Shown: piece by piece, positions 1 to 51,662 of the stretch
Layout: each line of letters begins with the position of its first letter
Numbering within the stretch: the stretch's first letter is position 1
Source: Thraustochytrium sp. TN22
Taxonomy: Eukaryota; Sar; Bigyra; Thraustochytrida; Thraustochytriidae
Length of the DNA: 56,955 bases
Direction: 5' to 3'
Assembly (NCBI GenBank): GCA_013306675.1
Contig: JABLUY010000237.1
Span: 1-56,955, forward strand
The notes under the pieces: model-generated
What the model was told of the DNA's origin: nothing
Seen by the model: only the letters and a program-made list of their open reading frames with translations
The model's database searches: none
Made by a program: the position numbers and the translations under genes

Positions 1-502
1 GCTCGCTCTGCAGGATCATGAGCACGGCGCCCTCCCAGGAGGCCTCGCGCGGCACGCCCTCCTCCATCACCATGCCAAGCATCCTGTTGGGCTTCTTGAG
101 GCCGGCGTACGCGAACTCCTTCTGACAGTTGTCGGCCTTGTCGCAGCGGTTGACGGCCTCGTAGTACTTCTTCGTCAGGCATGCCAGGAAGACTGTGCAC
201 GCATCGATCTGCTTGGTCATCCAGCTGACGAGGTCCGCGTGTGCCTGCTGCGCGTCGAGCACCATGGTGATGCGGAGCTCCCCATGCTCCACGAACCACG
301 CCACGACCTGCTCGAGCCGCTCGTTCACGTCGCGTCCCTGCTCGTCGGGGCCCCACTTGTGCGACAGGAAGACCGTCACCAGCTCGAGCTCGAGCTCATC
401 TCCGGCGTCCGCCTCGGGGGCGGTCGCCGGCGCGCCGCTCGGTGCCGCTGCGCGCGGGCGCGCCGCCTGGCTGAGCCGTGCGAGGATCGACCTGGGCGCC
501 AT
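1..502 (-). CDS. TIR-domain protein, N-terminal part (runs off left edge)
   Basis: An open minus-strand frame runs from an ATG at 502 to the left edge without a stop (167 codons), so only the N-terminus is present. After a 40-residue Ala/Pro/Arg-rich leader comes a TIR-like fold: beta-A 'VTVFLSHKWG' (about residues 42-51), 'RITMVLD' (77-83), the 'W..KQIDACTVFLACLTKKYY' stretch (94-114) and 'NCQKEFAYA' (125-133), followed by 'MVMEEG'. E129 sits where the catalytic glutamate of NAD-hydrolysing TIR domains lies. TIR domains act as signalling adaptors or NADases; which applies here depends on the missing C-terminus. No signal peptide is visible. TIR assignment is by motif order only; a related Rossmann-like fold is the alternative. 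Confidence 0.6.
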   Translation of the reverse strand, partial: MAPRSILARLSQAARPRAAAPSGAPATAPEADAGDELELELVTVFLSHKWGPDEQGRDVNERLEQVVAWFVEHGELRITMVLDAQQAHADLVSWMTKQIDACTVFLACLTKKYYEAVNRCDKADNCQKEFAYAGLKKPNRMLGMVMEEGVPREASWEGAVLMILQSE

Positions 503-1006
503 GGCGCGGCTTCGCGGCGGCCTCTCGGTTGCGGGTCTGCTGCCTGCGCGCGACGCACTCGCTCGCTCGCCGGCGCCTGCCGCCCGTTCTCGCGCGACGT
601 ATCCTCTGCCCCCCTGGCGCGCCTCCTGCAGCACGCGCGCTGCCCCCCTCCCCCTCCCCGGCGGGCCTTGTGCAGCACGCGCGGCTCGCGGTGCTGTGCC
701 GGCCGGCCACACGACCATCATCGCTCGCCACGCGGCGCGCTCTCGCCGCAACCGGGCAGCGGCGCGGCGGCGCGGTGGGCCTGGCCGGAGGAGGCGGTGC
801 GGCGGCGTCGAGCGGGCCTGGTCTGGCCTGGCGAGCGCCGCGCGTGCGTGCGCTCGAGCGAGGGACGGCCTGGGCGGCGCCCTCGTCACGAATCCACCGC
901 GCTGCGGGGCGCGCGCTGCTGGCTGGCTGCCTGCCTGCCATGGAGGAGGACAGAGCCGGGACGAAAATTTTAAATCAAGTCTTACTCTTACGGCCTAGTT
1001 GCTTAC
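503..1006. other. GC-rich intergenic stretch
   Basis: No gene is supported here. Long ORFs exist in several frames, but they are Arg/Ala/Pro-rich products of base composition. It is the presumed promoter of the TIR gene and the 3' flank of the PAN-domain gene. No conserved RNA or obvious repeat was seen. Confidence 0.5.
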
Positions 1007-4000
1007 TCATGGCTTTCCGACGAGGTCCTCGTACTCGTCGTCGTCGCGGCCGCCGCCGCCGCCGTCGAGGCCTTCCTGCGTGGCGTCGATGCACCAGCAG
1101 TACATGCCGCAGAGCAGGACGCCGGCGACGGTGCCCGCGGCGATGAGGTAGACGCGCAGCATGCTGGTGTCGATGGCCGAGGCCGGCTCGATGTACTCGA
1201 GGCTGGCGTAGCAGGTGAGGCCCTCGCTCTCGATGGCGGCGAGGCCCGTGGCGATGGCAGCCTTGGACTGCGCGACGTCCTCGCAGTAGGGCTCGAAGTC
1301 GTCGTCGTCGCTGCTGAACTCGGGCGCGGAGAGCATGGCGGAGCAGACCTTCTTGAATCGGAAGTGGCTGAGGAGCGCGGTCTGGGCGTCGGTCATGCGC
1401 TTGAGGTCCTGGATGTCGGTCGCGATGGACACTTCGTCCCAGTTGACGTAGAGGAAGCAGCGGCCGCGGGCCACGTCCAGCGCCATGCCGCGGCACACGA
1501 GCGGGTACTCGGAGCAGACGTCCTCGCAGAGCTGCAGCAGGTTGGCGCCCGCGGTGGAGCTGACGAGGCCGCTGGCGTCCTTGAAGTTGGTCGTGTAGCG
1601 CAGCACGTAGGCCGTGGAGTAGTCGCAGAGCGCGTCGGGCACGACCTCGTAGCTGGTTTTGATGCTCACGTCGGCCTGGAAGAGGACCGAGTAGTCGTAG
1701 CGCGAGTAGCAGACCGAGTCCGTGACGGTGGCCTGGCCCGTGGTGGAGGCGACCACGTTCCAGGAGTCCGTGTCGACGGCCTGGCTCTTCTCGTAGAGGC
1801 GCAGCATGGTCCAGGTGTGCGCGGGCGCCACGTACTTGGGCGGGGACTGGCCCAGCGTGTCGAGGAGCGCCGTGTTCCAGATGGTCTGCAGGTTGGCCAC
1901 GCTGTAGTCGTGCAGCGCCTCCACGGAGGTGTAGAGCGCGCAGCTGAAGTTGCCCTGGGTGCGCGTGTCGAACTCGGCCATGAAGCCCTTGCAGATGGTG
2001 GAGTAGCGGTCGCAGTAGTCGCGGCAGTAGCCGACCTTGGCGGCGTCCAGGTCCGTCTCGTCGGCGTCGGTCCAGTCGAAGCTGGGCAGCACGGTGCTCA
2101 CGTTCGTGGAGAAGGTGCCGGCCACGAGCGCGTTGCCGCCCGCGGAGACGCAGCGCGGGCCGCCCGTGTAGTGGTAGGGCGACTCCGGGTCCAGGTACGG
2201 GCTGGCGACGCCCGGCATGGTGACGCAGGTGATCTCGGTCGAGTCGTTGTCCGTGACGAGCGTGCGCGCGCGGCGCACGAGCCGCACGCCGGCGCCCGTG
2301 GTCATGCCGCTGTCGCTGTCGAGCGTGAGCGCGTTGGAGGAGTGCAGCAAGAAGTTGCAGCGCTTGAAGAGGCTCGAGCCGGCCAGGCCGCGCGTGGTCG
2401 CGTCGAAGCCGAAGTCGACGCCCGAGGCGTGCGAGCCGTCGCTCTTGCGGCTCACGTACTCGACGCCGGCGCACCAGTCGCTCTCGTCGCAGCAGAGCCC
2501 GGAGCAGTAGTCGAAGACCTCGTCGTTCATGGAGGCCACGTCGAGCGTGAAGACGTAGTCGTCGCTGATGGCGCCCACGCAGTTGCCCGCGCGCGGGTAC
2601 TTGAGCTGCGCGCGGCAGCCCGTGACGATGAACTCGCTCACGTCCTCGGAGCTGTCCGACTCGGTCAGCCGGTACGGCTCGACCTCGTCCGCGTCGCAGG
2701 CGCGCAGCGAGGCGGAGGCCACGCAGTCCAGCGGCTCGTCGGCCAGGTCCAGGATCCAGGCCAGGTCGTCCTCGCCCACCACCAGGTTCTCGTCCGTGAT
2801 GAGCTCGCAGTAGCCGTCGAAGACGTTGAAGCCGACGCAGAAGTCCTCGTTGTAGCGGCACATGGCGCGGCACTTGGTGTCGGTCCACACGTAGCCCAGC
2901 GGGCGGTCCAGCCGGATCGGGCTGCCCGTGGAGAAGGGGCTCACCGCGCGCACGCCCGAGCCCGCGCGGCAGAAGTCGCTCGGGACGGCTCCGTCACGTA
3001 GCCGCCGCACTCGAAGCGGAAGATGGGCATCTGCTCCTCGCTCACGGTGGTCACGTCCGCGCGGAAGGAGTCGCGCACGTAGATGAGCTGGTTCGCGCTC
3101 GCGTCCACGGACTGGCTGATGCGGAACTTGGACGGCACGTTGCTCATGTTCCACTGCACGTCCCGCAGCGAGGCCGGCCACGTGGCCTCGTCCCCGGCCC
3201 AGCCCGGCATGTAGACCTCGTACTCGAGCCCGGCCGGCACGAAGAGCCCGCGCACCTCGCTCTCGCTCTGGAAGATGATGTTGTCCGCGTACACGAGGCG
3301 CGCCAGCTCCGTGAACACGGCGCAGAAGGTCGCGTCCTCGCCCTCGTCCCGCTCCTCGCTGTACGCCACGCAAACCTCGGAGTGCGGGTAGAAGATGCGG
3401 CTGCACAGCTCGCCGCACGTCACCGAGGCCGTCTCGGACACCGGGAAGCGGAGGCGCACCATGCCCTCGTTCTGCGCCGCCGGGAAGAAGCCATAGCCGT
3501 ACTCGGAGAACTTGTCATCGGTCGCGTCCACGAGGCTGTCCGTGGCCGGCTCGGGGGCGCGCGCCGCCAGGAACGACATGCGGCTGTACGAGAAGCCATT
3601 CTGGTCCTGCGTCGAGGCCCAGTCCTCCCACTCCGAGGAGCTGGAGCTGCCCTCCGCCGGCTCGAAGAGCGTCCCGTTGCGCAGGCCCATGTACGGGTTG
3701 GTCTCGTCGCCGCCGCCGCGCGCCATCTCGTCCCAGTACAGCATCGCCGGCACAAAGTGGTACAAATCCGCGCTCCCGGTCCCGCCATAGGCCGCCTTGT
3801 ACGTGCTGGAGAACGCCTCGTCCAGGTACGCGAGCTGGAGCTCGTTCTCGGCGGCGCTGCTGCTCGCGCCCAAGAAGCGCTCGGGCGAGGCCGCAAGGAG
3901 CCGATACGCGCTTGTGATGAGAACGCACGCGCGGCCCGAGTTGGTCCCGCTCTGGGTCTTTCCGTAGTAGATGCCCGCGCAGACCCACTCTTGCTCGCAC

Positions 4001-4260
4001 CGCGCCTGGCACTCTTCGAACGCGAGCCCTTCCAGGGGCTTCAGGTAGGGGCCCGGCCCGCCCGTGTGCGTGAAGCTGTAGCTGCGCGAGCTCTTGTGCA
4101 CCCACTCGCTCAGGTCCTCGTTGCTCGCGTCGGTGGCCCCCAGGTACTGCAGCGCGACGGTCTCGGGCCACACCGCAGCGGCCTCTGCGCAGCGGCGGCC
4201 CGCGAGTGCGGCCGCGGAGGCCCACCATAGCAGCAGGGAGGAGGCGAGGCGCGGCATCAT
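1007..4260 (-). CDS. Large secreted/type I membrane protein with PAN/Apple-like cysteine modules (one frameshift)
   Basis: Two overlapping minus-strand frames form one protein of about 1080 residues. I chose the ATG at 4260 because it starts a signal peptide ('MMPRLASSLLLWW...'). At least four modules repeat a C-x3-C-x(6-7)-C-x-G-x(n)-C pattern typical of PAN/Apple folds: 'ECQARCEQEWVCAGIYYG', 'KCRAMCRYNEDFCVGFNVF', 'YCRDYCDRYSTICKGFMAEF' and 'LCEDVCSEYPLVCRGMALDV'. One hydrophobic helix near the C-terminus ('YLIAAGTVAGVLLCGMYCWC') is followed by a short Gly/Asp-rich tail, so a type I surface protein is expected. The coding frame changes near 2990-2996, at a CCC run; one base missing there would rejoin the frames. 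This may be a sequence error or a real lesion. PAN modules bind glycans or proteins; the ligand is unknown. It shares a 228-bp divergent upstream region with the next gene. Confidence 0.7.
2988..2998 (-). other. Frameshift point inside the PAN-module gene
   Basis: Upstream of this point the cysteine-module frame reads '...FECGGYVTEPS'. Downstream, the frame offset by one base reads 'SDFCRAGSG...'. Both sides look like genuine protein, with Cys-rich modules and balanced composition, while the alternative frames become Arg/Ala-rich at once. A short C homopolymer lies at the junction. Confidence 0.7.
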
Positions 4261-40416: not shown

Positions 40417-41373
40417 CCTTGCCGCGCTGCGCACACGCCGAGCAAGACGCCGCTCGCTCTCGCGCTCGCGCTCGCGCCCTGCGCCTGCGCCCGTGCGAGT
40501 CTCGCTCTGCCGCGCGCGCTCGCTGCGATTGAGGAGACGAGCGGATTTGATCGAGCTCCTGGACGCGGCGGCGCGGCGCGGCGCGGCGCGGCGAAGCCAT
40601 TCGTTCTGGAGGTCGTCATCCGAGACGAGTCGCCCGCGACCATCACCAGCATCGCGTCACGGTGACGGTCCGAGTCGAGTCAGCGGCGTCACGGTCGGCC
40701 CAGTGAAAGTGGCACTGCAGCAGGCCTCAGGCTCCAAATCATACGACGGCAGCGACGCAAGTCAGCCAACTCGGGCACTCAGAGACTCGTCGCTGACGCC
40801 TTCACATCGACTCGTCGGCGACGGCTTCACATCGACCTGTCGGCGATGGCTTCACTCGTCAGCGACGCCCTTCCATCGACTCGTCGGCGACGGCTTCGCA
40901 TCGACCTGTCGGCGATGGCTTCACATCGACTCGACAGCGACGCCCTCACATCGACTCGTCGGCGACGGCTTCACATCGACCTGTCGGCGATGCCTTCACA
41001 CCAACTCGCCGGCGACGGCTTCACATCGACTCAACGGCGACGGCTTCACATCGACTCGGCTCCTGCTGCTTCAATAAGCTGGATCGACACCGTGACGTCG
41101 TCAAAGGATCACAGAAAAGGGGGAGGCTTGGCTGCCGCCGCGCCATTCGCGCCACCAGCCTCCAGAACTTTGTTAGCAGCGTCAAGTGCGCAGACGGTAA
41201 GAACATGACGAGAGCAAAGACCTCCACACGATTTTCCTCTCCGCGTGATTTTCATTGACCGTCCAGTAGAGATGTAAAGAACGCGTGCATTACTTGTACT
41301 GCAGCACGGCCGATCAGAATCATCACATCACAACAGTGTCGTGTTCGCGAAATGTTTTCAATGTTGAACCAGC
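40417..41373. other. Intergenic region with 25-bp minisatellite
   Basis: Separates the TRMT2A start from the 3' end of the FAAL megaprotein. About 260 bp is a minisatellite, the rest unique and lower in GC to the right. No gene is seen. Confidence 0.6.
40799..41060. repeat. 25-bp minisatellite, about 10-11 copies
   Basis: The consensus TTCACATCGACTCGTCGGCG plus ACGGC repeats with a period near 25 bp. Two alternating variants (GACTCGTCGGCGACGG and GACCTGTCGGCGATGG) suggest growth by a 50-bp dimer. The period is not a multiple of three, so it is not coding. Confidence 0.9.
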
Positions 41374-44300
41374 TTACACTGCAACGGGCAGTTTCGCGTA
41401 TTGCGAAGCCGGCAAAGTCAAGGCACGATCTGGGACGTTCAGTCGCCGGCCAGGAGCTGGGCTAGCGTTCTCCGCGAGCTGCGGCGCGCCTGTACGCGGA
41501 GCAACACTCGAGTGGCTGGCGACGAAGCCCTTGCACAGGCAGAGGGCGCCGGGTTGAAGGAGACCACGAGTGCCAATGCGAGAAGGGCCGAACTCGAAGT
41601 TGCCGTTCGTGAACTGATGCGCGGTGAAATAGGCGTTATCGTCCACGATGGCCTCGTCGTCCGCGGTAAGCAGCTGGTGTTCGCTGAGTCGGCTCGAGCA
41701 GATCAGGACCCCGCGGCCCAGCCGAGCGCCCATGAATCGAGCGTGCAGGGCATACAGCGGCGTACCGTGCAGAACCGGGAGGAGGAGGTCCTCAAAGAAC
41801 CTGGTGTAGCTCTGGTACACGCAATATAGGTTGATGCGCGAGGGCGCCGAGTGGAGGTCGCGCTTCAGGCCCAGCACCGAGAGCGCGAGCAGGCGCTGCG
41901 GCAGTAGGAGGCCCAGGAGCGCGAGCCAGAAGCTGGCGGCGAGGAGAAGAATGGCTGCCGAGCGGTCAAGACCGGCGTCGAAGAGGACAAAGGTGGAGAA
42001 CTCGTAGGCAGGGATGAGCGAGGCCACCGCGAGTACAATGAGCACGACGCGCGCGAGCAACGAGCAAGCCTCCTCGGCGGCGCCCCACGGATAGGAAGAG
42101 TCGAGCTGATTCATTGCTGCGACCGGGAAGGTTGCGCCACGAAACTTGCGGTGACCCGAGGGCAATACCTCGCCAGCGTCCAGCGCGCTGAGCATGGCGA
42201 GGCTGGACCCCGGCTGCAGGGAGCTCCCGAGGCCGAGCGCCGCGAAGTGGCCCACCTCGCAATCGTGGCCAATACGCAGAGCGTCTCGCTGCCCGTCCAC
42301 CTCGGTCTCCACGAAGACGTAGCTTGCCATGGACCGGTCGCCCATTATGATGAGGTCCGCGTTGGACGGCGTGATCCAACGCCCACTCGTGGTGAAAGTC
42401 CTGTGGCCGAGGGATGCACCCAACGCGCGAAAGTACCACAGCACGGACCGCGTCTCGTCGAACCACACCAGCCAGGTGGAGAAGGCCAGGCTGAACAAGT
42501 AGTCCGCGGCCCAGAGGCGCAGCTCGAAGATGAAGCTTGGACGGACCGCGCCGGGTCGGAGGCGGCCTACGACTAGCCACTTGAAGGCAACCGCCACCAA
42601 GGACATCACCATGGCCGTCACAAAGAACGAGGAGGCCCAAAAGGCCAGGTCGGCGTAGCGGAAGCCGACGGGGTAGCCGCAGGCGTCCCACACGAGCAGA
42701 TTGACAACGCTGGCTGCAAAGTAGACCTCCAGAAAGGCGCACATGGTGATGACCTTTGCCACGAGGCCAAGCACTACGGTAGACGTCCGGGCGGCCGCGG
42801 CTTGAACTGGCCCGGTCGCGTTCACGGTTTCGCCTTCACCGACCACGCGCAATGGCTCGACCAGCGCGTGCCTGCCCACAGTAGCCCCGAGCAGCACCAT
42901 CGCACCCACCCTGACATGCGTGTATGCGCCCAGGCGCACCGCGCGAAAGCGTAGCGTCCGCGCCTCGGCGTCAAAGGCGCGGCACACAACCGTGCCCTGG
43001 AGGACGGCGCCCTCGTCGACGCGAAGCAGGTCAAGATCACGCACGGGCGTCTTGAGAGTGGCGGATAGCGAGACGCGGGCGCCTAGCAGCACGTAGACGA
43101 TGTTGAGCAAGGGTGTGTCGACGAGCCAGCGGCCAGCGGCGATCTCCCACATGCGCAAGAGGCGGTCGACGAACCACCAGCGCAGGTACGGCAGCGAGCC
43201 GATGCGGATCTCGCGTGGCGTCCAGCGGCCGAGGACGAGCCACTTGGTGCAGATGACCAGTGTCGTGAAGCCTGCAATCCACAGCGGAATCACAAAGGGC
43301 ATGAGGATGCCGAACATGAAGACCGTATCTGTGACGCGATAAAAGACCCAGGGCTCGCCCAAACCGCTCTCGAAACGCAGCCAGTAGCCGTAGTGGTAGG
43401 CCGGCAGAATTGCCGCGGCCATCTCCAAAAAGATGAGCCAGACACCCAAGAACTGCAACGAGACGTTCAGTGTTGTGGACAGCGGCAGGCTGTCCACGCG
43501 CTGCAGGTCCTCCAGGCGCGGCGCTCCGGCGCGCTTGGCCTCCACCGCCGCCGCGAGAGCGCGGACCGTGCGGTTTTGGGCGATGAAGTCCGGCTCGGTA
43601 CTCTCCTCAGCCTGAAGCAGCGTCTCGACGTGCGCGCTGACCTCCATGAGGGCCAGCGAGCTCATGCCGGCCTCGAAGAGATCGGCGTCCGGGTCGAGTG
43701 AGGGCACCTGGAGCGTCTCGCGGACGCGGCGTAAGAGCCAGTCAAGGCGCTCAGCGTCCGTCTCGCCGGTACGCTCGACGGCGTTTTCGCCGCCCAGGTC
43801 GGTCCACGTCTGCAGAAACAGGGCTGGCTGGATCTGGACGCCGCTGTCGAGCGGCGTGGTGAGCACGCGGTCGCAGCGAGCAACGATCGAGGTGGTCGCT
43901 GCGCGTCTCTCCTCTGGGCCGTAGCGCAGGAGAAGGTCTCTGATAACCTCGGTGGCTTGTGGGACGCCGAGGAGAGGCGTGATGTGCCCCAGGGCAGGGC
44001 CGGTGTTGACTGGGGGCTGATCCTTTGCGAGCCCTGCAAACACGTGGACCGGGTCCGCGCTGCCAATGAGCAGCAACGTCGCGACGCGGTCGCGGATGAA
44101 AGTCTGGCCCGATGACGGCTTGATGATGTCCGGCACAAAGAGGATGGTCTGGAAGGCGCGGTCCGCGAGGGCGTCCCCTTTGGGCCGAAACTTCTCGATG
44201 AAGGAGAAGTTCCAAGCCACGTAAGCCTGTGCGAACAAATCGAGAGGCACTTCGTGCGTGGCGCGGCCCAGCGAGACTTCGCTGAGCGCAGCGCCCAGCA

Positions 44301-46719
44301 CCGCGGACGGCGATGGGTCAATCACCCCAGGCGTGGCGTCGAGAAGCTCGGCGGCTACTGCAGTGAGGATATTCAGGCTGAGGCCGCGCTGGCTCTGCTG
44401 TGTGCGCTCGCCCCGTGCTGCCAGGTCCTGCAGCTCGATGCGGGCCGTCCAGACGAGCAGGCCGCGCTTGACCGTGTAGAACCAGGTCTCGTGGTCCATG
44501 CCCCGGTGGCCGCGCATGTTGCGTTCCAGAATATAAGGCATGGCCGCGGCAAAGGTTGCGGGGTCGCGCATGCGCTCCGTAAAGGCGGTCACGAGGAGGA
44601 GGAAACTGAGCGGGCCGCGCAGCTTGTCCGCCGTGGGCTTGGTGTGGGCAGCCTCAGTCAGCAGGAGGCCAGCGGTCACAAAGCCCGCGAGGACCGTCTG
44701 TGCCTCCAAGGCACTGCGCAAGTTCGCCAGCAGGGGCGCGAGACTGACCGGCTTTGACTTGTGCTCAGCGCACAGGTCCTGGAGGCCGGGCATCTCGTCC
44801 AGGTGAAGCTCGGTGATGATGCGGCCCACCTGCGTCGGATCCGTGTGGAGATTCATCAGCTGAGCGGCATTGAGGAGGTCCCACAGTGGGGCCAGGTCGG
44901 CCTTGGACACGGACGGTGCCCTCGTCGTGCCCTCGCCGCCGCTCCGCGCCACGACCGCGAGCTGGCCCTGCACGAAGGCGTCGCGCGCGGCGGCACGGCG
45001 GATCTTGCCACTCGTGGTCTTGGGGACGGTGCGCGGCTTGATGAGCACGACGGCGAGCGGCGAGAATCCGTGTTCGGCGACGATGGCTGCGCGCACGGCA
45101 TCCGCGAGTCGGCGAGCGTCTTGCATCTTGGCGTCGCGTACTTCGGCGACGACCACGACATCCTCCTCAGAGTTCTCCAGGCAAAAGGCCGCGCAGCAGC
45201 CGGGGCGGATGGCCGAGCTGCAAGCATCGACGCTGGCTTCCACGTCCTGTGGGAAGATGTTGCGGCCGCGAACGATGAACATGTCCTTGAGGCGCCCGCA
45301 CACGAAGACCTCGCCCCGGTGCACAAAGCCCATGTCGCCGGTGCGCAGGTAGGTTTGGCCGTCTGGTGACGCGAGCGTTGCGTTGAGCTGCGCCGTTGAG
45401 AGCTCCGGTTTGCGGAAATATGCGCGAACAGTGCTGGGTCCGGATGCCCAAATCTCGCCGACGCAGGCCTCGTCGTCGAGCGGCGCGCGCGTGTCCGGGT
45501 GCACAATGCGGATCGTGGTTCCTGGGCCCGGCTGCCCGTTGCTGATGAGTTCGAGGCCAGCGCCGTCTTGTTGATCTTCGATGCGAGTGCCAGGCGCCAG
45601 CGCAAGACCCGCACGCAGACGCACCACGCGCGGGCCCTTGGGTGGCTGATGCGTGGAGAGCAACATGACGCTCTCCGCGAGGCCGTAGGTCGGGTCCATG
45701 TACTCCATTCGCACGCCTTGGTCCGCGAAAGCGTCCACGAAGCGGCGCAGCGTGTTCATGCGCACTGGCTCGGCGCCGGGCGAGTAGCGCTTGCACGTGC
45801 TGAGGTCGAGTGATGCGCGCTTGGCGGGCGGAACCTTGCGCACGACGAGCTCAAAGGCAAAGCTTGGCCCGCACGTCATCGTCGCGCGGTACTTGGAGAT
45901 GGACGCCAGCCAGAGCGCAGGATTCCGCAAGAAGGTCGCCGGCGAAAACTGCACCAGCGAGCAGCCCATGGTGATGGCGCTAAGCGTGCAGCCCACGAGG
46001 CCCATATCGTGGTAGAACGGCACCCAGCTGACGCCGCGCGTGGCCTCGCTGATGCCCATGGCTGCGCAGATGCTGTCCAGGTTGGCGTTGAGGTTTCCGT
46101 GCGTGACGCAGACGCCCTTGGGGTCGCCCGTGCTGCCGCTGGAGAACTGTACAAAGGCGATGTCGTCGAGGATGGGCGCGTGGAGCGGCGTGAGGTCGGC
46201 CGCTGGTTTGGCCTTGCGCACATCGTGCCACTTGAGCCGGGCGGGAAACTGTTTGGCGCCAATGAGCATTCGTCGCGCGCGCAGGAAGCTGGCGTGCGAA
46301 AGCACATGCGTCAGCTCGGTGGCCTCGCAAACCTTGGCTAGTTTGACGAGTCCAGGTTTCGGGTTGTTCGGGTCTGGAGGATAAATGGGGACGGCCACGT
46401 AGCCGCCCAAGAGGCAGGCCATCATGGCTACGATGAAGTCTAGCCCGGGAAAGAAGACCAGCAGTACCATGTCGCCGCGCCTGGCGCCCCACGTATGCTC
46501 CAGGTTCCGCGCGACGCCGAGAGCGGCAGTGGCCAACTGGCGCCGCGTCAGCCTTCCTACCTCCTTGCCCTTGTCATCCAGCCAGGTGAACAGCAGGCGG
46601 TCCGGGTCTTCGGTGGCCAGCCTCACGAGGTTCTCGCATATGCCCGGCATGCTTTGTGGCTTGGGAGGATGATGACCACCTTTTGGGATTGCTTCTTGCT
46701 CGGCCCATGTCATGACCAC
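41374..46719 (-). CDS. FAAL - unknown domain - carrier protein - Pls/PosA-like membrane acyltransferase fusion
   Basis: A single 1781-residue frame. Residues 20-590 are an adenylating enzyme of the fatty acyl-AMP ligase type: 'FVQFSSGSTGDPKG' (189-202), 'WVPFYHDMGLVG' (232-243), 'YGLAES' (345-350), 'YLRTGDMGFVHRGEVFVCGR' (457-476) and the C-terminal lysine of 'PKTTSGKIRR'. Residues about 605-985 are helical and unrecognised. Residues 990-1065 are an acyl/peptidyl carrier with 'DLFEAGMSSLALME'; S1021 is the expected phosphopantetheine site. From 1085 on it resembles the membrane part of Pls/PosA-type synthetases: paired TM helices near 1088-1110, 1133-1162, 1315-1345, 1355-1385, 1405-1422, 1553-1583 and 1587-1615, alternating with soluble left-handed beta-helix-like segments, with 'KWLVLGRWTPREIRIGSLPY' (1159-1178) and 'KWLVVGRLRPG' (1380-1390) as landmarks. 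Predicted role: activate a fatty or other carboxylic acid, load it on the carrier and transfer it at a membrane. Product unknown. Confidence 0.85.
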   Translation of the reverse strand: MVMTWAEQEAIPKGGHHPPKPQSMPGICENLVRLATEDPDRLLFTWLDDKGKEVGRLTRRQLATAALGVARNLEHTWGARRGDMVLLVFFPGLDFIVAMMACLLGGYVAVPIYPPDPNNPKPGLVKLAKVCEATELTHVLSHASFLRARRMLIGAKQFPARLKWHDVRKAKPAADLTPLHAPILDDIAFVQFSSGSTGDPKGVCVTHGNLNANLDSICAAMGISEATRGVSWVPFYHDMGLVGCTLSAITMGCSLVQFSPATFLRNPALWLASISKYRATMTCGPSFAFELVVRKVPPAKRASLDLSTCKRYSPGAEPVRMNTLRRFVDAFADQGVRMEYMDPTYGLAESVMLLSTHQPPKGPRVVRLRAGLALAPGTRIEDQQDGAGLELISNGQPGPGTTIRIVHPDTRAPLDDEACVGEIWASGPSTVRAYFRKPELSTAQLNATLASPDGQTYLRTGDMGFVHRGEVFVCGRLKDMFIVRGRNIFPQDVEASVDACSSAIRPGCCAAFCLENSEEDVVVVAEVRDAKMQDARRLADAVRAAIVAEHGFSPLAVVLIKPRTVPKTTSGKIRRAAARDAFVQGQLAVVARSGGEGTTRAPSVSKADLAPLWDLLNAAQLMNLHTDPTQVGRIITELHLDEMPGLQDLCAEHKSKPVSLAPLLANLRSALEAQTVLAGFVTAGLLLTEAAHTKPTADKLRGPLSFLLLVTAFTERMRDPATFAAAMPYILERNMRGHRGMDHETWFYTVKRGLLVWTARIELQDLAARGERTQQSQRGLSLNILTAVAAELLDATPGVIDPSPSAVLGAALSEVSLGRATHEVPLDLFAQAYVAWNFSFIEKFRPKGDALADRAFQTILFVPDIIKPSSGQTFIRDRVATLLLIGSADPVHVFAGLAKDQPPVNTGPALGHITPLLGVPQATEVIRDLLLRYGPEERRAATTSIVARCDRVLTTPLDSGVQIQPALFLQTWTDLGGENAVERTGETDAERLDWLLRRVRETLQVPSLDPDADLFEAGMSSLALMEVSAHVETLLQAEESTEPDFIAQNRTVRALAAAVEAKRAGAPRLEDLQRVDSLPLSTTLNVSLQFLGVWLIFLEMAAAILPAYHYGYWLRFESGLGEPWVFYRVTDTVFMFGILMPFVIPLWIAGFTTLVICTKWLVLGRWTPREIRIGSLPYLRWWFVDRLLRMWEIAAGRWLVDTPLLNIVYVLLGARVSLSATLKTPVRDLDLLRVDEGAVLQGTVVCRAFDAEARTLRFRAVRLGAYTHVRVGAMVLLGATVGRHALVEPLRVVGEGETVNATGPVQAAAARTSTVVLGLVAKVITMCAFLEVYFAASVVNLLVWDACGYPVGFRYADLAFWASSFFVTAMVMSLVAVAFKWLVVGRLRPGAVRPSFIFELRLWAADYLFSLAFSTWLVWFDETRSVLWYFRALGASLGHRTFTTSGRWITPSNADLIIMGDRSMASYVFVETEVDGQRDALRIGHDCEVGHFAALGLGSSLQPGSSLAMLSALDAGEVLPSGHRKFRGATFPVAAMNQLDSSYPWGAAEEACSLLARVVLIVLAVASLIPAYEFSTFVLFDAGLDRSAAILLLAASFWLALLGLLLPQRLLALSVLGLKRDLHSAPSRINLYCVYQSYTRFFEDLLLPVLHGTPLYALHARFMGARLGRGVLICSSRLSEHQLLTADDEAIVDDNAYFTAHQFTNGNFEFGPSRIGTRGLLQPGALCLCKGFVASHSSVAPRTGAPQLAENASPAPGRRLNVPDRALTLPASQYAKLPVAV

Positions 46720-48070
46720 TAGCTAGCTAGCTAGACCAACCCGCTGCCAGTGCTCTGAGCAGCTTAGCACTACCGCCGTGCTCAACCCACGATCAAGAGC
46801 TCAACTTGAACACGGAGGCGCTGGCATTGATCCGACTCTTCGGAAGCTCGGTAAGCCAGTCGAGGACCCCGCGACACCGGGATACTCGCGCCCAGCCTGA
46901 GCACGGACGGGCCACTGTCAGAAGCACAGTCACGTCAATGATTCGACGAACTGGTCGTGGCAGTGACGAGCCTCGGCGATGAACGCGGGCCGGCCGCGGC
47001 GGTTGATGACACGCCTACGTGCGAGGACTCTTAGCTAGCGTCGCATTGGTGGTGGGACGAATCAGATGGCCCCCGGGGACGCATGATCGCAATCCAGCAT
47101 GCCATGAGCATGCAAAGCGATTACTAATTCTGCGCAATCGCGCGGCGCGAGCCACTGCAGGAGGGTCCTCGAGCTGCTGTGAGTCGTGCATCAACGCGCT
47201 GCAACAGCAAGTGAGGACCCGTGACGGACGCGAGGGATCCGAGGGACTCTGGGACTCCTCTCGAAGGCGGCCAGCGGCGGCCACGCCGGCGGCCGGTTCA
47301 GCCGTGCGCAGGCGTGCTGGTGCTGGCTGGTGCTGCCTGCGGCAATCGTGCAAGTTGTCATCATCGCCATCATCACATCAGTTAGGTGCGCACCAGCGCG
47401 CACCCAGCCACCGTGGTGATGGGCCACTCGGCCACTCGGCACGGCATGCCGGTGGGTACCATGGTACCAGGAAACCTAACAGACTGCTACAGAAACTTAC
47501 CGCGGATACAGCGGTGGCGGATGCCAGCGGATACAGAGGCACCTCAAGTTCCATGCATGCAGTGGCGTGCACTGGCACTGTGCGCGGCTGTCTCTGCTTC
47601 GGTGGCGGACTGCGACCGCTCTGTTCTCTCGTTCGGGCTCCAGCTAGCCTCGGTGCAGTGCAGTGGTACTCTACGAGCCCGAGCCCGCCGGCGAGGTGCT
47701 CCACCGTGACTCGGAGACGTCTGCAGCCTCTCAGCCAATTCGATGGTGGCGCTCCCGCGGCCAGCGCTGGCGATCCGCGATGATCGCACTGGCAGGACAG
47801 TCCAGAGGCCGCTGTCAGATGATGGCGGCTGATCACAGTCCTGCCCTGACGCCATGTCACCAGGCCAGTGGGCGGCATTACGAGCTGGAGTCCGCCGGTC
47901 GCGCGGCCTTCTCAATCCGCTCCCGAGCGCGGCCAGCGCGGCGGCAGCGGCGAGCAGAGCGGCATCCGGAGCTGCGCGGCAAGCAAGCGGCAGAGGCCAG
48001 CGAGCAGCAAGAGCTCGAGCACGAGCAGCGGCGCGGCGCGCAGGCGGAGTCTCGGAGAGCGGAAGGCAAG
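46720..48070. other. 1.35-kb divergent intergenic region
   Basis: Lies between the FAAL fusion (leftward) and ECH1 (rightward), both acyl-group enzymes. A GCTAGCTAGCTAG patch (46720-46734) abuts the FAAL start. The ECH1 frame is open upstream to 47663 without conserved content. No other gene is seen. Confidence 0.5.
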
Positions 48071-48916
48071 ATGGGCGGCGTGGACGACATGAAGCTGGAG
48101 GCGCTCAAGGTGAGCCGGCAAGGGCAGGTGGTGCACGTGGAGCTGGCTCGGCCCAAGGCCGGCAACGCGATGAACAAAGCCTTCTGGCGCGAGTACCGTG
48201 AGGTGTTCCAGGCGCTGGCGGTGGACCCGGAGTGCCGCGCCATCGTGGTGTCGGGCCAGGGCAAGTTCTTCAGCGTGGGCCTGGACATTAAGCAGCCGTC
48301 GGTGCTGGGCGGCGATGGCACGGATCCGCGCGACCCGGCGCACAAATTCTGGCACACGCGCTCGGAGGTGTTCCCGATGCAGGAGACCTTCACGGCCATG
48401 GAGAAGTGCCCGCAGCCCGTGATCGCCTGCGTTCATGGCGCGGCGATCGGCGGCGCCATCGACCTGCTCACGGCCTGCGATATCCGCCTGGCCGCCGAGG
48501 AGGCCTGGTTCTGCATCCAGGAGGTCAACGTCGGCATCGCCGCCGACGTCGGCACCCTGCAGCGCCTGCACCATGTCATGGGCAACAACAGCCTGGCGCG
48601 CGAGCTCTGTTACACGGGCCGCCGCATGGAGTCTGCCGAGGCCAAGAGCGCTGGCTTCGTCAGCACCGTCTACCCGGATCGCGACACGCTCATGGCCAAG
48701 GGCATGGAGCTGGCCCAGCTCATCGCCTCCAAGTCCCCGCTCGCTGTCGCCGGCACCAAGGTCAACCTTAACTACAGCCGCGAGCACACCATCGCCGACT
48801 CCCTCGAGAAGGTCGCCACCTGGAACGCCGCCGCCATTCAGACCGGCGAGACCCTCGAGGCCGCCAAGTCTGCGCTCAGCAAGGGCGCGATCAAGCCCAA
48901 GTTCTCCAACCTCTGA
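48071..48916 (+). CDS. ECH1: Delta3,5-delta2,4-dienoyl-CoA isomerase
   Basis: Enoyl-CoA hydratase/isomerase superfamily enzyme that shifts the double bonds of 3,5-dienoyl-CoAs so that unsaturated fatty acids can be beta-oxidised. It has 281 residues from the ATG used here. Close to animal ECH1 along its length: 'FWREYREVFQAL' (38-49), 'CRAIVVSGQGKFFSVGLDI' (55-73), 'ETFTAMEKCPQPVIACVHGA' (105-124), 'DLLTACDIRLAA' (131-142), 'EVNVGIAADVGTLQRL' (151-166) and 'KSPLAVAGTKVNLNYSREHT'. The catalytic acids map to D137, E151 and D159. The protein ends in Ser-Asn-Leu, a plausible non-canonical PTS1 where animal ECH1 has SKL, so peroxisomal location is likely. The upstream frame is open, so a longer dual-targeted form is possible. 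Relevant to organisms rich in polyunsaturated fatty acids. Confidence 0.93.
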   Translation: MGGVDDMKLEALKVSRQGQVVHVELARPKAGNAMNKAFWREYREVFQALAVDPECRAIVVSGQGKFFSVGLDIKQPSVLGGDGTDPRDPAHKFWHTRSEVFPMQETFTAMEKCPQPVIACVHGAAIGGAIDLLTACDIRLAAEEAWFCIQEVNVGIAADVGTLQRLHHVMGNNSLARELCYTGRRMESAEAKSAGFVSTVYPDRDTLMAKGMELAQLIASKSPLAVAGTKVNLNYSREHTIADSLEKVATWNAAAIQTGETLEAAKSALSKGAIKPKFSNL

Positions 48917-49451
48917 GCTACCTTTGTCGGTGGCGGCGCGGACACGAGGAAGAAGGAAGAACCTGACGACAAGAGATTCAAGGCGCGGAGCAGCAAGCCG
49001 AAGACCGAGCGAATCGAAGCCAAAACTAAATTGAAGATGTGTCATTTGACGAGCGCTTCTCGCGCGACGTGCCGGATGCGAGCAGCCGATGTCGCGAGCG
49101 AGAGAGGGCGGGCTAGCCGTCACTGGCAGCCAGGCTGCTCGAGTGAAGCAATCCGAAGACCGAGCGAATCGATGTGTCATTTGACGAGCGCTTCTCGCGC
49201 GACGTGCCGGATGCGAGCAGCCAAGGCCGCGAGCGAGAGAGGGCGGGCCACTGGCAGGCTGCTCGAGTGAAGTGCCGAGTCCAAGTCCAGCCTGCCTGCT
49301 CGCTCCTAGCTATGGTGTAAGACTGTAACCTGGCAGTGTGTGTAACCTGGCACCCGGTTCTCGAGAGGGGGAGCCGCAGCAGCGACGTCGATCAAACAAC
49401 CAATCTACTCTCAATCAACCCATCCATCGCAGGGCGGCGCCCGCGGCGAGG
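48917..49451. other. ECH1 3' flank / PH-DnaJ promoter
   Basis: About half of the stretch is a tandem duplication (48998-49273). The remaining 180 bp before the PH-DnaJ start holds a duplicated TGTAACCTGGCA at 49324-49352. No gene is seen. Confidence 0.6.
48998..49273. repeat. Tandem duplication downstream of ECH1
   Basis: Unit 1 (48998-49148) and unit 2 (49153-49273) share CCGAAGACCGAGCGAATCGA, then GATGTGTCATTTGACGAGCG, the following roughly 40 bp almost unchanged, and a terminal CAGGCTGCTCGAGTGAAG. Unit 2 lacks a 20-bp block and a few other bases present in unit 1. Confidence 0.92.
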
Positions 49452-51662
49452 ATGGAGGAGGTGCGGCGGCTGCTGCGCGAGAGCCGCGCGGCGCTGGAGA
49501 AGGCGCGGCGCGACCTGGAGGAGTGCCAGCGCATGCAGGCGGCGCTGGCAGCGGGACATGGCGACCCGGAGGGCGGCGCGGCCACGCTGGCGCGCGGGCC
49601 CGAGAGCGACGAGGACGGCGCGGCGACGCGCGGAGGCGCGGGGCCGCGGCCCGAGGAGGCCGAGGGCGCCCCCTCGTACCGGGGCTTCGAGCAGGAGGAG
49701 CTGCCGCAGCAGCAGGGCGCGGCGACGCCCGCGGCGCTGAGGACCATCGTGATGCCGCCAGGTCCGCCGCCGCCGCCGCCGTCGTCGCCGCCGTCGCCGG
49801 CGCCCAGCCAGGGCCAGAGCCAGGGCCAGGGCCAGGACGACCCCTTCCCGGAGCAGGCCAGCGCGGAGGCGGACCTGGAGGCGGAGCTCTTCGAGGAGCG
49901 CCGCCCGCGCAAGGCGTCCGAGGCGCTCGTGGAAGGCGCGGCGCAGAACCTCAAGGCCGGCCGCCGCGCGTCCGCGAGCGCGGCGGCGGCCGCGGCAGCG
50001 GGCGCCGACGGGCCCGAGGAGGATGTGGACGAGGATTCGGACGATGACGAGGCGCTCCCGGTGACCTCTGGGCTCAACTTCGGCGACGCTGAGGACCAGC
50101 TCGTGGACGGCGCCGACGGCGGCAGCAAGGGCGCGGCGGGCGGCGCGGGCGGCGCGAATGGCAGCTCGGGGGCCACCGTGACGGCTGCCAGCGGCGGCCT
50201 TGGCCTGCTGACCGTGGACGAGGACGAGGTGATGGACGACCTCCTGCTGCTGCTACCGCCGCCGCCGAGCGCAAGCCGGCTGCAGTCGCAGTTCTCCATG
50301 CGCACGCTGCGGCGCGCTTCGCAGGTGCCCGTGGGCGATGGGGAGATCGATCCGGACATGGCGCGCGAGGCGTCCGAGGGCGCAGAAGACCCGAACGAGC
50401 AGGCCGCGGCGGCCGAGCCGCAGCACGTCATGATGCGCGTCAGCGGGTACCTGCGCAAGCTGGCGTCGACTGCCAAGATCTTCGCCGTGCCGCGCATGCG
50501 CTGGTTCATGCTGGACGGCGACCTGCTCAGCTACAGCGTCAAGAAGGAGTCGCCGACCGTCAAGCGCATCATGAAGCTCGACGACGCCACCTGCACGGTT
50601 TATGTACAGGACCCGCGCAAGCAGGCCTCGGGCAAGCCCAAGGTGTACTACATTTACGTGGTGCCCAACTCGCCTCTCGAGCGCAAGATGCGCATGACGA
50701 CCGAGTCCGAGGAGGACGCGCGCCTTTGGCACGGCGCCATCAACAACAACATCCTCTGCGCGATTGAGAAGAAGCAGCTCGGCCTCAGCAGACTCAACAC
50801 GCTGCGCCGCACCGAGAGCCGCCGCACCTCGCAGGTCGGCATGGACATGAGCGAGCAGCCGCGCGAACAGCCCAAGACCTTTTATGACATCCTCGGCGTC
50901 CCGCCCGACGCCACGCTCCCGCAGATTCGCAAAACTTACTACACGCTCGCCAAGAACTACCACCCGGACAAGAACCCGGACATTGACGCCAAGGCCTTTG
51001 CCGACATTGGCCGCGCCTATGGCGTACTCAAGGACAAGGCGCTGCGCGCCAGTTACGACCTCTGCGAGACCGTCAAGGCCGCCTTTCGCCTCGGCGTGCT
51101 TGCCGTCAAGCACGAGGAGGACGGCGCCTACGCGCGCCGCGTCGTGTTCTTCCTCGACCGTCACTTCGAGAACCTCTTTTGGCAGCCCGAGAGCCGCGGC
51201 AGCGTACTCAAGCCGGGCTACTCGCGCATCGAGCTGCGCTACGTCGCGCGCATCACCGCCGGCGAGGACGACAAGAACCTTGTCTTTGGCAAGATTCGTA
51301 AGCCCAAACCCTCCTCGGCTGGCGCCCGCCGCCGCGACGACGGCGACGAGGCAGGTGACAACGACGAGGACGAGGACGACGTCGTCGACCCGGACGACGA
51401 CAACGACGATGCAGACGACGGCGAGGGCGAAGAGGAGGACGAGGATGGCGAGGACGTTGATGAGGATGAGCGCCGGAGCCGCTGCCTCAGCTTGCGCCTC
51501 TCGCCGCACGCCAAGAAGATCGGCTACTCGGCCGTCTTCATTGAACTCGACACGCCCAAGGCCCGCGACGATATTCTCGATGGCCTGCGCATTCTTCGCT
51601 GTGGTGCGAGCATGCTCTTTCAGCAGCACCTGGATGAGATGAAGAATGAGGGCTACCGCTAA
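49452..51662 (+). CDS. PH and DnaJ domain protein
   Basis: 736 residues. An N-terminal coiled coil (1-30) and 290 residues of acidic/Pro/Gln-rich disorder come first. A PH domain (about 325-435) follows: 'VSGYLRKLAS...RMRWFMLDGDLLSYSVKKESP...TESEEDARLWHGAI'. A J domain (about 475-540) has the HPD motif at 504-506 ('KTFYDILGVPPDATLPQIRK...NYHPDKNP'). The C-terminal part looks like a second PH-like fold split by an Asp/Glu tract of roughly 40 residues: 'ARRVVFFLDRHFENLFWQPE...SRIELRYVARITAG' (562-604) before, and 'CLSLRLSPHAKKIGYSAVFIE' with a terminal helix (678-730) after. Expected to recruit Hsp70 to a phosphoinositide-bearing membrane. The start was chosen by context; an in-frame ATG at 49338 is less likely. 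The last 18 codons and the stop are duplicated immediately downstream. Confidence 0.85.
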   Translation: MEEVRRLLRESRAALEKARRDLEECQRMQAALAAGHGDPEGGAATLARGPESDEDGAATRGGAGPRPEEAEGAPSYRGFEQEELPQQQGAATPAALRTIVMPPGPPPPPPSSPPSPAPSQGQSQGQGQDDPFPEQASAEADLEAELFEERRPRKASEALVEGAAQNLKAGRRASASAAAAAAAGADGPEEDVDEDSDDDEALPVTSGLNFGDAEDQLVDGADGGSKGAAGGAGGANGSSGATVTAASGGLGLLTVDEDEVMDDLLLLLPPPPSASRLQSQFSMRTLRRASQVPVGDGEIDPDMAREASEGAEDPNEQAAAAEPQHVMMRVSGYLRKLASTAKIFAVPRMRWFMLDGDLLSYSVKKESPTVKRIMKLDDATCTVYVQDPRKQASGKPKVYYIYVVPNSPLERKMRMTTESEEDARLWHGAINNNILCAIEKKQLGLSRLNTLRRTESRRTSQVGMDMSEQPREQPKTFYDILGVPPDATLPQIRKTYYTLAKNYHPDKNPDIDAKAFADIGRAYGVLKDKALRASYDLCETVKAAFRLGVLAVKHEEDGAYARRVVFFLDRHFENLFWQPESRGSVLKPGYSRIELRYVARITAGEDDKNLVFGKIRKPKPSSAGARRRDDGDEAGDNDEDEDDVVDPDDDNDDADDGEGEEEDEDGEDVDEDERRSRCLSLRLSPHAKKIGYSAVFIELDTPKARDDILDGLRILRCGASMLFQQHLDEMKNEGYR

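Follow-up and report, generated by a model that had tools for sequence, protein, structure and literature searches.

A family of fatty acyl-AMP ligases fused to a carrier and a Pls/PosA-type membrane domain in Thraustochytrium sp. TN22

The thraustochytrid Thraustochytrium sp. TN22 encodes a family of proteins in which a fatty acyl-AMP ligase (FAAL) is joined in a single chain to a carrier domain and to a terminal membrane domain of the Pls/PosA type. FAALs and Pls synthetases are each already known, and what is new here is a FAAL-Pls fusion family of at least 21 loci, with three architectures and with modules that have been swapped between paralogues. The member on which we concentrate lies in a window of 56,955 nucleotides, the entire contig JABLUY010000237.1 (C152) of an assembly of 37.9 Mb in 453 contigs, and its domain content suggests that it is probably a self-contained, CoA-independent membrane acyl synthetase. 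Pls-type terminal domains are known from the making of amino-acid polymers, and FAALs from supplying PKS and NRPS lines; the two joined in one natural protein would bring fatty acids into the range of the Pls fold and would allow CoA-free acyl transfer or polymerisation at the membrane.

The open reading frame and its domains

The frame occupies positions 41374..46719 of the window and encodes 1781 aa; it and all of its features described below are on the minus strand. As listed it begins with a GTG, the earliest ATG being residue 3 (46713-46711), and an in-frame TAG at 46725-46723, two codons 5' of the GTG, closes the frame upstream, so that the ATG at 46713 is the likelier start for a eukaryotic gene. 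When the window was simulated 100 times with a first-order Markov model, the longest open frame reached at most 1010 codons (median 413), so that a frame of 1782 codons is beyond chance even in sequence as GC-rich as this (mean 66-67% across the window). The same contig also encodes an MCM helicase (with MCM9 as its best solved match), a DnaJ-PH protein, an inorganic pyrophosphatase, a DUF389 protein and an enoyl-CoA hydratase/isomerase, a gene content from which the host is concluded to be a eukaryote. A search for the RuBisCO large subunit gave no match. Bacterial contamination was considered and is ruled out by the MCM9-like and DnaJ-PH genes on what is a whole contig and by the presence of the family on 15 other contigs. 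The first-pass annotation, which had described an uninterrupted 1781-residue frame in a eukaryotic setting with a FAAL-type adenylating domain, a carrier with an intact serine and a Pls/PosA-type membrane region, is borne out on each of these points by the evidence given here, its coordinates being exact and its domain boundaries holding to within about 20 residues.

Three further features of the contig are recorded as observations. The enoyl-CoA hydratase/isomerase gene (47663-48916, plus strand) adjoins the FAAL gene divergently and is a possible lipid-metabolism neighbour, and the PH and DnaJ domains are fused in one frame of 774 aa (49338-51662, plus strand). Directly downstream of the FAAL gene, at 40784-41058, there is a tandem array that can be read with a period of 25 (11.2 copies, 76% matches) or, alternatively, with a period of 75 (3.6 copies, 88% matches).

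The adenylating domain (residues 20-592, 44944..46662) is, by its sequence relationships, of the FAAL type. In Pfam it matches PF00501 (E 9.8e-52) and the DIP2-like AMP C-terminal model PF23024 (4e-12), both over their cut-offs. The highest NCBIfam score (398 bits) belongs to a large NRPS/PKS model of 4334 positions, of which the first 574 alone are matched. FAAL models follow with 351 and 342 bits, and a model named as a CoA ligase has 324 bits. The curated cut-offs of the FAAL models, which are those of bacterial subfamilies, were missed (351.4 against 600 bits and 342.2 against 775 bits), and none of the 25 NCBIfam matches listed for the whole protein reached its curated cut-off. The best PDB matches are FAALs, namely 7r7e-g, 3kxw (LpFAAL), FadD23 and FadD32. 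The available text of PMC11837247 describes 7r7e-g as a FAAL and reports FAALs in eukaryotes, including stramenopiles and algae.

The annotation had left the fatty acid reading to depend on whether the domain groups with FAALs or with amino-acid-activating NRPS domains, and in a tree of 56 adenylating domains (built by a quick method, with several long branches flagged) it falls with bacterial FAALs, not with acyl-CoA synthetases or NRPS-type A domains, and apart from the A domains of Pls proteins. The 18 aligned adenylating domains of the genome form a single clade (SH-aLRT 100) on the FAAL side, which also holds 11 of the 13 bacterial FAAL rows (SH-aLRT 100), while 12 Pls A domains make up a separate group (97) on the opposite side (100). 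Two bacterial rows, L044 and L052, were placed beside the Pls A domains, probably because a different A domain was excised from these multi-domain proteins. A FAAL profile separates the two sets in the same way, with E-values of 8e-17 to 3e-5 for the 12 Pls A domains against 2e-50 to 1e-148 for 15 bacterial FAAL loci, and where the top FAAL model reaches 351 bits, TIGR01733, the model for amino-acid adenylation, reaches 123. On the tree and the family models, the reading as an amino-acid-activating A domain was rejected.

Residues linked to the FAAL type are also retained. In EcFAAL the CoA pocket is plugged by the bulky residues W224, M231 and F279, according to the available text of PMC8460268. 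Their counterparts in the window protein, mapped by identical spacing rather than by direct alignment to EcFAAL, are W232, M239 and F287, of which the first and last are conserved in 18 of 18 aligned paralogues and M239 in 17. A stretch SPxxFLxxP, corresponding to the FAAL-specific helix, and the lysine K572 (45004-45006) are each kept in all 18, and dN/dS for the domain against the paralogue on contig C147 is 0.16. FAALs can activate unusual carboxylic acids, so some caution attaches to a fatty acid as the class of substrate.

The carrier domain (residues 989-1065, 43525..43755) is recognised by PF00550 at E 7.5e-9, over the Pfam cut-off. All 19 aligned carriers have both serines of the G-M/L-S-S motif, and the attachment site is most likely S1021 (43657-43659) in G-M-S-S-L, the second serine being the cofactor site in the usual carrier consensus. 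Against the C147 paralogue its dN/dS is 0.19. Three matches to the PPTase family PF01648 occur in the genome, and their products could arm the carrier. One of these PPTase domains, at G000:C442:184400-184720, lies within an open frame of 4221 aa, which is reminiscent of the giant fatty acid synthase of thraustochytrids and may be such a type I enzyme.

Between the adenylating domain and the carrier lies a region of residues 605-985 (43765..44907), here called MID, that belongs to no known family in the libraries searched (Pfam, NCBIfam and PDB) and is nevertheless conserved, with a mean column identity of 58% over 13 aligned copies and a dN/dS that is 0.32 in comparison with the C147 paralogue and lies between 0.31 and 0.48 for other pairs. 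In Pfam the window member has no match and one of the 13 members has a chance match at E 0.16; NCBIfam returned noise alone (E 0.34), and profile searches of the PDB gave only matches at E 1 or more. No copy was found in viral contigs, in plasmids or in the open reading frames of 80 bacterial and archaeal loci. The first-pass annotation had called this an unrecognised helical domain, and the first part of that description stands; for its helical character the evidence is an AlphaFold model made without an alignment, which is all-helical and, at pLDDT 43, too poor to use.

The C-terminal part (residues 1081-1760, 41440..43479) is, by homology, a Pls/PosA-type terminal domain. TIGR02353, the model of the Pls/PosA NRPS terminal domain, matches it in three stretches at E 4.8e-44 with 150.8 bits, below the curated cut-off of 423.1 bits, which five Myxococcota matches of 228-340 bits also miss. 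With E-values up to 1 allowed, the model found matches in every one of the 14 control genomes, and at 1e-20 in one; additional homology tests were therefore applied to the membrane part. A tblastn search with residues 1081-1760 alone matched 42 plasmid records, and the best 20 of the 42 comprise 11 that carry an annotation as Pls/PosA-family synthetases, one annotated as NRPS, one as an adenylation protein and seven without an annotated feature at that place. An HMM built from 17 paralogues detected all 14 bacterial Pls proteins that were fetched (E 4e-29 to 2.5e-14), and hhalign aligned the domain with 13 bacterial Pls terminal domains over 558 columns (99.8%, E 9.6e-28). The proposal that residues 1085-1781 would match Pls profiles is therefore upheld, though under the curated cut-off.

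Hydropathy averaged over the 17 paralogues reveals three pairs of hydrophobic segments, six in all once two slivers of 2-3 residues are disregarded: residues 1087-1103 and 1137-1158 (43246..43461), 1320-1340 and 1366-1380 (42580..42762), and 1553-1574 and 1591-1611 (41887..42063). This arrangement of six helices in three pairs is the one given for Pls in the available text of PMC10522769, where the PosA model adds three left-handed beta-helices. The beta-helix repeat model Hexapep of Pfam matches 11 of the 17 paralogues when E-values up to 10 are allowed, the best being 1.4e-6, and gives no match in the window member, and a single-sequence AlphaFold model of the membrane part was unusable (pLDDT 37).

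Strong conservation in both the paralogues and the bacterial Pls proteins is seen at 27 positions, among which the sole histidine is His1701 (41617..41619), present in every one of the 17 paralogues and of the 13 bacterial proteins. Phe1703 is found in 15 of 17 and 13 of 13, respectively; the DR that follows His-x-Phe-x in bacteria is not retained here. Beta-helix acyltransferases usually have a histidine as base, which together with this conservation makes H1701 a candidate base. In two paralogue pairs dN/dS for the membrane domain is 0.25 and 0.31.

The paralogue family and the exchange of its modules

Searches within the genome and domain mapping place the family at no fewer than 21 loci in 37.9 Mb. 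Eight, the window gene included, have the order FAAL-MID-ACP-PLS; two, on C114 (2235 aa) and C359 (2146 aa), have FAAL-MID-MID-ACP-PLS; and nine have FAAL-ACP-PLS, one of these with an in-frame stop and another with an assembly gap where the carrier is not seen. The two remaining loci are C147, which has FAAL-MID-ACP and no PLS, and C451, where a FAAL is cut by the contig end, so that the PLS domain is present at 19 of the 21 loci. Three loci lie on C74 and two each on C99, C16 and C401. The short-form paralogue L029 (G000:C74:54401-61400) has an in-frame TAG within its Pls part and is either a broken gene or affected by a sequencing error.

Comparison of these loci gives clear sequence evidence that modules have been swapped between paralogues, with two recent swaps. 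Two neighbours on C74 have PLS domains that are 97.8% identical and fronts that are 32-82% identical in 60-residue blocks, with the jump just past the carrier. Likewise, the PLS of C359 is 97.9% identical to that of C11, and it is C114 that its FAAL (91% identity) and its MIDs (96%) resemble, a protein with which its PLS shares 71%. Across the recent pairs and domains for which it was computed, dN/dS ranges from 0.15 to 0.51, indicating selection that is mostly purifying and uneven.

In the double-MID proteins the two copies fall in two different MID branches, so this form combines two types of MID and does not stem from a fresh duplication. The number of changes in MID presence depends on the domain from which the tree is made: five with the FAAL tree, three with the PLS tree and one with the carrier tree, counts that were equalled or undercut in 180, 13 and 0 of 500 shuffles, respectively, the last of these trees being based on 82 columns with a weakly supported deciding branch (5%). 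These counts are suggestive of MID and carrier forming one cassette between an exchangeable front and an exchangeable back, with MID presence tracking the carrier better than the FAAL.

Other adenylating genes of the genome are noted here as observations. L036 (G000:C224, 2208-4976, minus strand) encodes a separate FAAL and carrier protein of 923 aa that is sister to the family in the tree, and L037 (G000:C97:71001-75831, open reading frame 2-4240) has an MBOAT and a FAAL in one frame of 1948 aa, of which 1413 aa were read. AMP-binding genes occur in clusters, four within 10 kb on C136 and three within 9 kb on C123 (14 of 62 candidates were scored), and a frame of 4522 aa at C332:206714-211450 contains two AMP-binding domains.

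Outside this genome, no bacterial FAAL-Pls fusion was found in a limited sample of 80 loci, 14 Pls proteins and 1112 plasmid records. A single scan across bacterial and archaeal genomes had confirmed 233 loci, from which the 80 were kept; 15 of the 80 are FAALs by score, some with short flanks. Of the 14 bacterial Pls proteins, 12 extend back into the A domain, one of these being cut at a contig end, and among the 1112 plasmid records with any match none covers 80% of the query. At 1e-20 the Pls model gave five matches in 282 Myxococcota-centred genomes and ten in 198 Actinomycetota-centred ones. Phage records yielded 19 matches, all inside the adenylating domain, and viral contigs two weak ones. 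Records of Acinetobacter phage MD-2021a (CAKLQH020000009.1 and CAKLQF020000013.1) contain a FAAL-like 'AMP-dependent synthetase' that is 36% identical and is possibly host DNA. Among the titles listed by searches of open-licence PMC papers on FAALs, Pls-type synthetases, NRPS-like proteins, thraustochytrid NRPS and fatty acid synthase, none reports a FAAL-Pls fusion. The available text of PMC10522769 describes Pls-like genes in fungi, Metazoa, alveolates and Amoebozoa, and the word 'fatty' is absent from its main text as available.

Proposed mechanism and alternative readings

The leading reading is that the window protein works like a Pls/PosA enzyme with another kind of acid. The FAAL would convert a fatty acid, or a carboxylic acid much like one, into an acyl-AMP, and the acyl group would be loaded onto the phosphopantetheine of the protein's own carrier at S1021. 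The carrier would then deliver the thioester to the membrane-embedded Pls/PosA-type domain, in which each helix pair is predicted to be followed by a segment matching a left-handed beta-helix of the PosA model. This domain may hand the acyl group on to an acceptor with an amine or a hydroxyl, possibly more than once, with His1701 as the best candidate base for the transfer. The MID, present in about half of the paralogues, appears to accompany the carrier, which it probably gates, positions or acts upon. The family has diversified as paralogues exchanged their FAAL fronts and membrane backs.

The domain anatomy is compatible with single-acceptor transfer as well as with polymerisation. The Pls proteins of PMC10522769 polymerise diamino acids, and simple acyl transfer is accordingly not documented for this fold in the available text of that paper. 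Fatty-acyl transfer is supported by analogy with two other proteins, the FAAL-MBOAT fusion on C97 of the same genome and the Marinobacter protein L045. The window protein could instead be a true polymerase, its FAAL activating a hydroxy- or amino-fatty acid and its Pls part joining many copies into a polyester or polyamide. We regard this as rather unlikely while recognising what favours it: Pls/PosA enzymes polymerise with one protein (available text of PMC10522769), all the necessary parts are present here in a single chain, and the membrane domain is homologous over the 558 columns aligned.

A different outcome would follow if the membrane part had lost acyl transfer and served to anchor or export the product of the FAAL-carrier unit and separate enzymes. 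The loss of the DR after His-x-Phe-x of the bacterial signature would fit such a role, as would the lack of a membrane part in the C147 paralogue and in the separate FAAL-carrier protein on C224. We consider it improbable, however, given the near-complete retention of His1701 and Phe1703 in paralogues and bacterial proteins alike, the keeping of the domain at all but two of the loci and the dN/dS of the membrane domain in the two pairs cited above. Very improbable is a Pls/PosA-type synthetase of the usual sort, producing a homopolymer of amino acids through an A domain that looks FAAL-like and no more, for although its terminal domain belongs to the Pls/PosA family and Pls-like genes are reported in some other eukaryotes (available text of PMC10522769), the placement of the A domain among FAALs and away from the 12 Pls A domains, the low TIGR01733 score and the FAAL profile values all argue against it.

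Returning to the membrane acyl synthetase that we prefer, we tentatively entertain a broader possibility for the family as a whole. This protist lineage may have turned the Pls fold into about 20 combinatorial, CoA-independent membrane machines for fatty-acid-based products, in which the swapped FAAL and membrane modules would supply variety and the MID, in one or two copies, would add a step on the carrier-bound acid. Under this same tentative proposal the products might be polymers built from hydroxy- or amino-fatty acids (polyesters or polyamides), or else molecules of the membrane or surface that have been acylated. A set of this size, with natural swap boundaries, makes the roles of the front, the MID-carrier cassette and the membrane back directly testable.

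Comparison with known systems

Among the nearest known systems are the Pls/PosA NRPS proteins (epsilon-poly-lysine and delta-poly-ornithine synthetases; TIGR02353), which likewise have an adenylating domain, a carrier and a domain of about 700 residues with three membrane helix pairs. The terminal domains are homologous, but that of the window protein scores below the family cut-off; the window family has a FAAL-type adenylating domain in place of an amino-acid-activating A domain, adds zero, one or two copies of an extra domain before the carrier, and forms a large paralogous family. With no amino-acid A domain and a score under the curated cut-off, the protein would fall outside the Pls/PosA family as defined by sequence.

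At the other end of the chain, the FAAL-carrier loading parts of bacterial PKS/NRPS proteins (L039-L042; solved example 7r7f) resemble the window protein in having a FAAL, 34-39% identical in the best segment, followed by a carrier, but these proteins continue to ketosynthase or condensation domains, without a Pls terminal domain. The animal and fungal FAAL-like protein DIP2 shares with the family eukaryotic FAAL-like domains and the Pfam C-terminal model, and differs in combining a DMAP1-binding domain with two FAAL-like domains and in having no Pls part, according to the available text of PMC8460268. Analogues in their likely manner of working are Marinobacter L045 (7587-10454), with a carrier, a FAAL and a PF01553 acyltransferase in a single chain, and the C97 protein, in both of which acid activation is fused to a membrane-type acyltransferase, although their acyltransferase families are unrelated to the Pls/PosA-type domain and their domain order is different.
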